Source: Georgenia sp. SYP-B2076 (lineage in GTDB: Bacteria > Actinomycetota > Actinomycetes > Actinomycetales > Actinomycetaceae). Taken from it: a stretch of DNA of 64,000 bases. Shown here piece after piece: positions 58,245 through 59,294 of the stretch. Position 1 is the first letter of the stretch. The number at the start of each line of letters is the position of its first letter. Made by a program: the position numbers and the translations under genes. The notes beneath the pieces are model-generated. The model searched no databases, had not been told where the DNA came from, and worked only from the letters and a program-made list of their open reading frames with translations. The stretch covers positions 124,001-188,000 of the forward strand of contig NZ_RXOZ01000031.1 in NCBI RefSeq assembly GCF_003991205.1. Direction: 5' to 3'.

Positions 58245-59165
58245 TCAGAGTCGGGCAAGTGCCCTTCGTACCTCTTCGACCACAAGCTCGGGCCGGTTCA
58301 TGATCTCTTCCGCAGTGAAGCGAAGCACCAGGTAGCCGGCCGCCACGAGGGCGCGGTCACGACGACGGTCCTCGCCGAACTGTCGCCGGCTGGAGTGGAA
58401 GGCGTACCCGTCACACTCGAGGACCACCCGTCCCTCGACGAGAAGATCGACCTCGCCGACCCCGGCGATCACCACACCGGCCCGCACGTCCAGGCCGTCG
58501 GCTCTCAGGATCAGCCGAGCACGGGTCTCGATAGCAGACCGGCTCCGCCTGTCGCACCGGTCGAGCGCCACCCGGGCGTGGGCGCTGCCCGGACCGACCA
58601 GAGCACGCACGAGCTCCTCCTTTCGGATCATGTTCTTGTTGAGGGCGGAGTCCACCACCACGATCGCGTGTTCCTCCGGCTGGCACCGCAGCACTCGCGT
58701 GAGCACCTCGGCGATGGGCGCCAGCGGGACCCGTGGATCCACGGGCCTCGTCCAGGCCGACTCTCGGTGGAGGTAGACCCCGGTGGTGGGACGGGACGGG
58801 CGGGGACGGCAGCCGCGGGACCGGGGCACTGCCAGGTGGACGTGCGCCGGTTCCCTGAGCACCTGGAGTCCATAGAAGCCGGCGGCGCTGACGCACGTGA
58901 CCGTCGCGTTGAACCGTCGGGCCTTGACCAGCGCCGCCTGAGTGTCGGCGGTGGCGAGCCAGCCCGCTCCCAGGTCGAGGACCATGCCTTCCGCGAGCGC
59001 GCTCGCAAGCTCCCGCCGCAGGCGCGCGCTGCGCGCCACGTTGGCGCGCTTGCCCACACCACCGACATCCTGCAGCCGCGCGTAGAGCTCCATCCGACGA
59101 AGGTGGCCGCTGACGCGCATCGGGCGCTCGCCCGCCGACGTTGTCTGTGGATCACACAGAGTCAT
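58245..59165 (-). CDS. DUF559 / AbiEi-like protein (winged helix plus Vsr-type nuclease fold)
   Basis: A 306-residue cytoplasmic protein. The N-terminal 80 or so residues look like the winged helix seen in AbiEi-type antitoxin proteins ([38 protein letters not shown]). A middle domain with [15 protein letters not shown] sequence follows. The C-terminal DUF559 domain has [20 protein letters not shown] and [12 protein letters not shown], a PD-(D/E)xK-like pattern related to the Vsr repair endonuclease. The ATG at 59165 has GGGAG seven bases upstream; an ATG at 59120 is an alternative. The gene lies between birA and accD, normally neighbours, and is bracketed by R2 elements C and D. It may be an accessory or selfish gene; activity is unproven. 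Confidence 0.82.
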
Positions 59166-59196
59166 CCCCAGGCTCCCAGGACTGGGGGAGCACTCG

Positions 59197-59294
59197 GATC
59201 GCGCCACAAACGCGGGGACGGCGCACAAGCGGATGGCGGACTTACGCCAATCTTGTCCTCTGGGAGGCGGACTCGATCGCGTATGTGGCGCGAT
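59197..59294. repeat. R2 element, copy D (98 bp, 12-bp inverted ends)
   Basis: Ends GATCGCGCCACA and TGTGGCGCGATC. Homologous along its length to the reverse complement of copy A. It lies 32 bases upstream of the DUF559 start codon, and the A-D similarity continues into that gene's first codons. Confidence 0.8.

Follow-up and report, generated by a model that had tools for sequence, protein, structure and literature searches.

The window, a stretch of 64,000 nucleotides from Georgenia sp. SYP-B2076, carries a minus-strand open reading frame between birA and an accD-type gene. Read from the ATG at 59165, this frame encodes a protein of 306 aa, in which an AbiEi-like DNA-binding module is fused to a nuclease domain of the EDxHD/Vsr type (Table 1). 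Residues 22-205 matched the AbiEi fold in the fold comparison, and the C-terminal part matched the homing-endonuclease/Vsr domain, with E213, D240, E250, D252, H257, and D266 conserved. Judged from fold and conserved residues only, the protein looks like a DNA-cutting enzyme. Pfam DUF559 matched above its cut-off (E = 2.7e-9), and MTES_1575 scored slightly below its own (E = 2e-9, 37.9 bits against a cut-off of 38.2). Residues 2-5 and 7-21 had pLDDT values below 50 in the predicted structure, and a start codon at residue 17 or 26 is therefore possible. The closest named relative was a protein of G. ruanii with 63% protein identity. The initial annotation had described this gene as bracketed by two R2 palindromes between birA and accD, and every coordinate checked was correct.

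Table 1 Features of the nuclease locus and R2 palindromes in the window.
Feature	Position	Strand	Remark
AbiEi-like DNA-binding module fused to EDxHD/Vsr-type nuclease (MTES_1575/DUF559), 306 aa	58245..59165	-	Assigned from family and fold matches
AbiEi-like part, winged helix-turn-helix and AbiEi C-terminal-like domain, residues 22-205	58551..59102	-	
Vsr/EDxHD nuclease domain, residues 206-306	58248..58550	-	
birA (biotin-protein ligase)	56735..57775	-	Neighbour
accD-type acyl-CoA carboxylase carboxyltransferase	59485..61125	+	Neighbour; GTG start at 59485 read by eye
R2 palindrome, downstream copy (L013), arms GATTGCGCCACAAAGG / CCTTTGTGGCGCGATC	57943..58032	.	212 bases past nuclease stop
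R2 palindrome, upstream copy (L014), arms CGGATCGCGCCACAAACGCG / CGCGTATGTGGCGCGATCCG (59195-59297)	59197..59295	.	32 bases before ATG
Likely central core of upstream R2 copy, TGGCGTAAGTCCGCCA, resembling GGCGTGATTCCGCC / CCGCATGATTCCGCGG	59234..59249	-	Assigned by eye
Solo R2 palindrome (L011), core GGCGTGATTCCGCC	6731..6830	.	Between convergent ORFs
Solo R2 palindrome (L012)	19789..19877	.	Intergenic

R2 palindromes are about 90-100 bp long. The pattern GCGCCACA-N58-88-TGTGGCGC had 12 matches in the 4.28-Mb genome and none when read backwards; a spacer of 30-60, used in an earlier version of the pattern, was not long enough and gave 0 places. The half-site ATCGCGCCACAW was found at 31 places, with 0 in the control. 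The 12 exact-ended copies were alike mainly at their ends and variable in the interior, and their hairpin folding was strong (z = -2.8 to -6.5). With up to two mismatches, the core CCGCATGATTCCGCGG was found at two places in this genome and its control also at two; variants of it and a CGACACGCCG-type core were present. A pairwise repeat scan with loose ends was dropped, as its output was mostly noise. Both solo copies in the window look intergenic in the ORF lists; heuristic gene finding instead put the first of them within a 308-aa reading frame.

The nuclease gene is flanked by two of the 12 exact copies; by chance, two genes of this kind should have 0.003 copies within 300 bp (Poisson P ~6e-6). 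The genome contains four DUF559-domain hits, and R2 lay within the 1.5-kb flanks of the window gene only. The enrichment of R2 that had been suggested for DUF559 genes was therefore found for the family combining an AbiEi-like module with an EDxHD domain, but not for DUF559 in general (one of the four hits). A second AbiEi-nuclease gene in the same genome (L002, C34:139459-142638) is frameshifted. Two palindromes near its ends share an arm unlike that of R2, but they were detected only with a relaxed threshold, which gave four palindromes in this 3.2-kb locus altogether.

The R2 pattern was found at 43 places in 14 of 149 related genomes. Read backwards it gave 22 places, and single places per genome are therefore at chance level. 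At least seven of the 43 places adjoin a relative of the AbiEi-nuclease gene, so that the enrichment near the gene expected in the initial annotation was observed in the related genomes as well as in the genome of the window. The distance to the gene was 212 and 32 bp in the latter (G000), 37-58 bp in G004, G016, and G071, and 13-15 bp, twice, in G136. This last genome, from another family of the order, has 14 R2 places and a bracketed nuclease gene. R2-type arms were also present on both sides of the gene in Georgenia satyanarayanai, at L093 (= L063) and at its orthologue L118.

R2 is not a strictly Georgenia repeat, since other lineages show the same layout with other arms. The palindromes are not tied to DUF559 generally, since distant relatives (L137, L143, L147, L149, and similar loci) were mostly palindrome-free. 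Carriage by phages was considered as well; the exact core occurred in 16 viral-contig stretches, which is about chance by a rough estimate from the size of the collection.

We analyzed the flanks of 45 named loci of AbiEi-nuclease relatives (L091-L135, out of 80 loci of relatives), and 26 of them had end palindromes. Thirty-six palindromes lay in the 24,750 bp beside the gene, whereas only four lay in the 235,038 bp farther out. After removal of 10 near-duplicate loci, which were picked by hand, the corresponding numbers were 26 and 2, and 19 of 35 loci had palindromes. With fixed flank windows, a palindrome was found in 25 of the 45 loci, compared with a mean of 0.05 and a maximum of 1 for shuffled flanks. 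In a wider set of 74 distinct loci (81 rows, chosen by us), 22 had palindromes on both sides, 19 had them on one side only, and 33 had none; grouping at 85% identity gave 64 groups, with 17 both-side, 17 one-side, and 30 without. At the thresholds used, then, 19 of the 45 named loci and 33 of the 74 distinct loci had no palindrome. Where both sides had one, the arms matched in 21 of 22 distinct loci (23 of 24 rows), with a median similarity of 16 as against 5 between loci. The two bracketing copies were in direct orientation in 14 of the 16 loci compared, several of which are orthologous. Arm sequences vary between lineages, and the layout around the nuclease gene is the same. The pairing of gene and palindromes is a wider pattern in Georgenia, Actinomyces, and relatives.

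Actinomyces oris WVU627 (NZ_CP116225.1) has two 122-bp copies with the same arm variants, flanking a gene annotated as "hypothetical protein". The neighbours at this locus (L331) are annotated as M20 hydrolase, hypothetical protein, and ribonucleotide reductase. The final 48 bases of the nuclease gene lie within the downstream palindrome here (L331 2703-2824), whose left arm is therefore coding. At E 1e-5, relatives were found in three plasmid records and one phage record. Among the plasmid relatives, palindromes lie on both sides of the A. oris gene; of the two Tsukamurella loci, one has a single weak palindrome and the other none.

Paralogues can carry different arm families. In the genomes of A. 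israelii (G155), A. timonensis (G156), and A. oris WE8B-23 (G157), two nuclease genes apiece are flanked by arms that differ from one gene to the other; no palindrome was found at five of the 11 nuclease genes examined in these genomes. TGCACATTCAT arms were present at nine of 10 core sites fetched from G068 (L236-L245; one variant), and no partner nuclease was found beside these arms. Likewise, no partner gene was found for the GCACATGGGAG arm family of G155.

Many elements carry the core CCGCATGATTCCGCGG in their middle. We searched 19 genomes for this core with up to two mismatches; A. johnsonii had 17 places against 2 for the control, and A. israelii had 52 against 3. Core sites were fetched for G155 (20 of 52), G068 (10 of 18), and G149 (16 of 17). 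All 16 sites examined of the 17 in A. johnsonii were palindromes of about 120 bp whose arms belong to the family found beside the nuclease gene of this species. Clear arms (score of at least 11) were found at only seven of the 19 core sites read out for A. israelii and at one of three in G088, and three of the 18 loci fetched for A. naeslundii (L316, L317, and L319) were without an element.

The build of the elements was fixed in three Actinomyces species, as arm-32-core-32-arm. Among 41 elements chosen by arms (up to four mismatches) and core (up to two), which the script counts on both strands as 82 rows, the distance from arm to core was 32 in every case. The length between the arms, for which 50-120 was allowed, was 80 in 38 elements and 81 in the other three. 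We compared 12 orthologous elements of A. johnsonii and A. naeslundii and found conserved positions at 445 of 456 in the arms and 142 of 144 in the core, against 666 of 771 inside the element and 6991 of 7921 in the flanks, a contrast that is biased upward because the elements were selected by arms and core. In these pairs, the interior of the element diverges at about the rate of its flanks.

Covariation was analyzed in A. johnsonii and A. oris, with 19 of their 24 elements. Compensatory arm changes were few (5 of 18 arm pairs), and one shuffle in 500 reached the score, relatedness being disregarded in this control. G-U occurred in only two cells of the arm helix. Solo elements were mostly extragenic: heuristic gene finding in three species placed just one core site out of 34 within a gene, 12 between tandem, 11 between convergent, and five between divergent genes, with five unclear. 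Many of these sites are orthologous; the count takes one site per locus, omits the nuclease loci L203, L303, and L253, and includes the armless L316. Interior flips were found in one of 27 orthologous pairs. At one orthologous site of A. johnsonii and A. naeslundii (L209 and L304), the core was reversed relative to the flanks.

Some elements are half-mosaics. The elements L204 and L210, at different loci, were 0.94 alike in their right halves and 0.52 in their left halves, and L209 and L322, also at different loci, were 0.91 alike in the left and 0.52 in the right; the highest value for half-sharing in 6000 shuffles was 0.74. A. naeslundii has another right half at the L204 site, where the start of the core and the right arm on either side of it are intact. 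In A. johnsonii and in A. oris, the two gene-side copies of the species were 0.91-1.00 alike, against 0.59-0.69 between these species, and those of A. naeslundii were alike only in their right halves (left/right, 0.69/0.97). Half exchange is rare, both halves being kept in most orthologous pairs. From these alignments, the elements at times exchange sequence, with joins at the core and the arms. Breaks at the core that are repaired from other copies would leave such half-mosaics, and the half exchange thus supports, rather than proves, cutting by the nuclease, as plain gene conversion without a nuclease would look similar.

We looked for traces of insertion at three A. johnsonii solo loci compared with A. 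naeslundii and found neither an empty site nor a target duplication. An element was at the orthologous place in A. naeslundii each time, and the three solos were unsupported as recent insertions. No target duplication was noted by eye in the aligned elements. The gene and its two palindromes had also been proposed to be an acquired unit inserted between birA and accD, a proposal that the data bear out only in part. The junction does vary among the nine genomes of the genus that were searched (L257-L264). The nuclease adjoins accD in two of them, pointing towards accD in one and away from it in the other; in G004, one of these two, the sequence did not extend to the birA side. Other content or a longer gap was found in three genomes and a short gap in four. 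The boundaries were not alignable, and no exact insertion boundary was found. The birA-accD gaps of G008 and G002 are about 1.2 kb long and contain other reading frames, sortase-like and SGNH-hydrolase-like by eye. In G005, birA was not within 1.5 kb.

Taken together, the gene and the palindromes probably constitute, in our moderately confident reading, a selfish or domesticated two-part module similar to REPIN/RAYT, in which an unrelated nuclease is paired with palindromic elements. The AbiEi-like N-terminal half of the nuclease would recognise the arm sequence of about 20 bp, and the C-terminal EDxHD domain, of the Vsr/homing-endonuclease type, would cut DNA. The elements, of about 80-140 bp, each consist of two inverted cognate arms around an asymmetric core of the CCGCATGATTCCGCGG or CGACACGCCG type; two copies often bracket the nuclease gene, and others lie between genes around the chromosome. 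The protein would bind both arms and then nick or break the DNA at or near the core, and repair from another element with the same arms and core would copy one half or the whole element. Such copying would homogenise the elements and now and then spread them. The pairing of gene and palindromes and the build of the elements are established by the results above; arm binding, cutting, the core as the cut site, and the movement of copies to new sites are the steps of this scheme that we infer.

Alternatively, the palindromes may be operators by which the AbiEi-like protein represses its own gene, the solo copies being further sites or decoys and the nuclease domain serving something else. Passages of PMC3985639 describe repression by AbiEi of its own promoter through inverted repeats of up to 23 bp, the N-terminal fold of the nuclease matches AbiEi, and an upstream copy is present at many loci. 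We nevertheless consider this reading unlikely, because the downstream copies are equally matched, the sites are commoner between convergent genes (11) than between divergent ones (5), and the elements have a long fixed spacing of 80 nt with a core of their own as well as half-mosaics.

An improbable explanation is that the palindromes are miniature elements of an unrelated transposase, with the nuclease gene as cargo between two copies as in a composite transposon. The nuclease family caught between the copies would then be the same in lineages whose arms differ, and arms also differ between paralogues of a single genome. This weighs against the resemblance in layout, a gene plus two repeats that are mostly direct in the 16 loci compared (several orthologous), and against the dispersal of the copies. 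Furthermore, the immediate neighbours are not transposases in the window (birA and accD) or in the annotated A. oris locus.

The nuclease might also be an anti-phage defence protein or a derivative of an orphan type IV antitoxin, with the palindromes serving in regulation or self-recognition. Of 36 family members, 28 are matched by one PADLOC AbiEi model at E values up to 0.01, and two relatives in Tsukamurella plasmid records are annotated as AbiEi-family antitoxin. The likeness to AbiE lies in the AbiEi fold of residues 22-205 and in the binding of inverted repeats, which passages of PMC3985639 report for AbiEi. However, a nuclease is fused to the module here, and the repeats lie on both sides of the gene and genome-wide, whereas AbiE is without matched two-sided palindromes or dispersed copies. 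An AbiEii nucleotidyltransferase was absent beside the gene in the window, which has birA and accD there, and by annotation in L331; a toxin partner was likewise absent by annotation in L331, L332, and L333. The gene is therefore not part of an AbiE toxin-antitoxin pair, and we regard the defence reading as quite improbable. That the palindromes act as RNA, in the form of bidirectional terminators, mRNA-end hairpins, or protein-bound structured RNA, is very improbable in spite of the strong folding of the 12 R2 copies and the location of elements near gene ends, since no Rfam match was found in the loci searched, G-U cells in the arm helix numbered only two in 19 elements, and the arm sequence is tied to the nuclease lineage.

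For many palindromic repeats of bacteria no enzyme is known, and REPs with their RAYTs are the best-known solved case. ERIC sequences are imperfect palindromes. Passages of PMC2229807 describe ERIC as 127-bp intergenic repeats and name no enzyme for them; the elements described here differ from ERIC/IRU and other orphan repeats in having a candidate partner gene attached. REPIN/RAYT systems, according to passages of PMC3116915 and PMC8266576, have a single-copy, largely vertically inherited enzyme gene, with an own repeat family for each enzyme paralogue. The likeness to these systems (the same passages) lies in an inverted pair of conserved ends, in scatter between genes, in copies beside the enzyme gene, and in vertical persistence; repeats both flank the gene here and are dispersed in the genome. 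REPs are described in PMC3733652 as GTAG- or CGTC-tagged and 20-40 bp long, whereas the present elements have arms of about 15-23 bp that lie about 65-100 bp apart around a central core, and no shared GTAG foot was seen when the aligned elements were read by eye. The enzyme is not an HuH (Y1) tyrosine transposase, its families and fold being those of AbiEi and Vsr/EDxHD. The module is therefore not a member of REPIN/RAYT, and the likeness would be convergent. The resemblance had been anticipated in the initial annotation as that of a Vsr-like nuclease travelling with genome-scattered palindromes, similar to REP/RAYT pairs but with an unrelated protein, and it is supported by the R2 copies beside relatives and by the lineages with other arms. 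The catalytic domain is of the EDxHD/Vsr type, as in the EDxHD homing endonuclease I-Bth0305I and Vsr, but the gene is free-standing in the loci seen and goes with palindromes instead of a single allele site.

We found no prior description of a pairing of nuclease and palindromes in the open-access PMC literature, although subscription journals or preprints could contain one, and a term search of the RepRanger paper (PMC12306157) gave no mention of nuclease or RAYT. The module appears to be categorically new, because our searches of open-access PMC revealed nothing that connects such an enzyme with such repeats; filed by principle rather than descent, it could be placed with the REP/RAYT kind. 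It is an even call whether the REP/RAYT principle has arisen here independently for a second time, with an AbiEi-guided EDxHD nuclease that would recognise the lineage-specific arms of the palindromes, cut at the shared core, and so spread and homogenise the elements; the module would then represent a previously unrecognised repeat-nuclease class in Actinomycetota. A palindrome family of about 80-140 bp with a candidate enzyme of unrelated fold makes the origin and upkeep of such repeats testable. It also points to a possible function for genes that carry the label orphan AbiEi antitoxin, DUF559, or hypothetical protein, and to a DNA-binding module whose recognition sequence of about 20 bp is re-tuned from one lineage to the next.

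Other repeats were observed in the window. A 21-bp unit, TCCGCTGAGCGCCGCATGTCA, occurs three times in tandem at 58121-58183, between the downstream R2 copy and the nuclease stop codon. The raw scan also detected GC-rich repeats of about 34 bp, arranged head-to-tail, at about 9877-10012.
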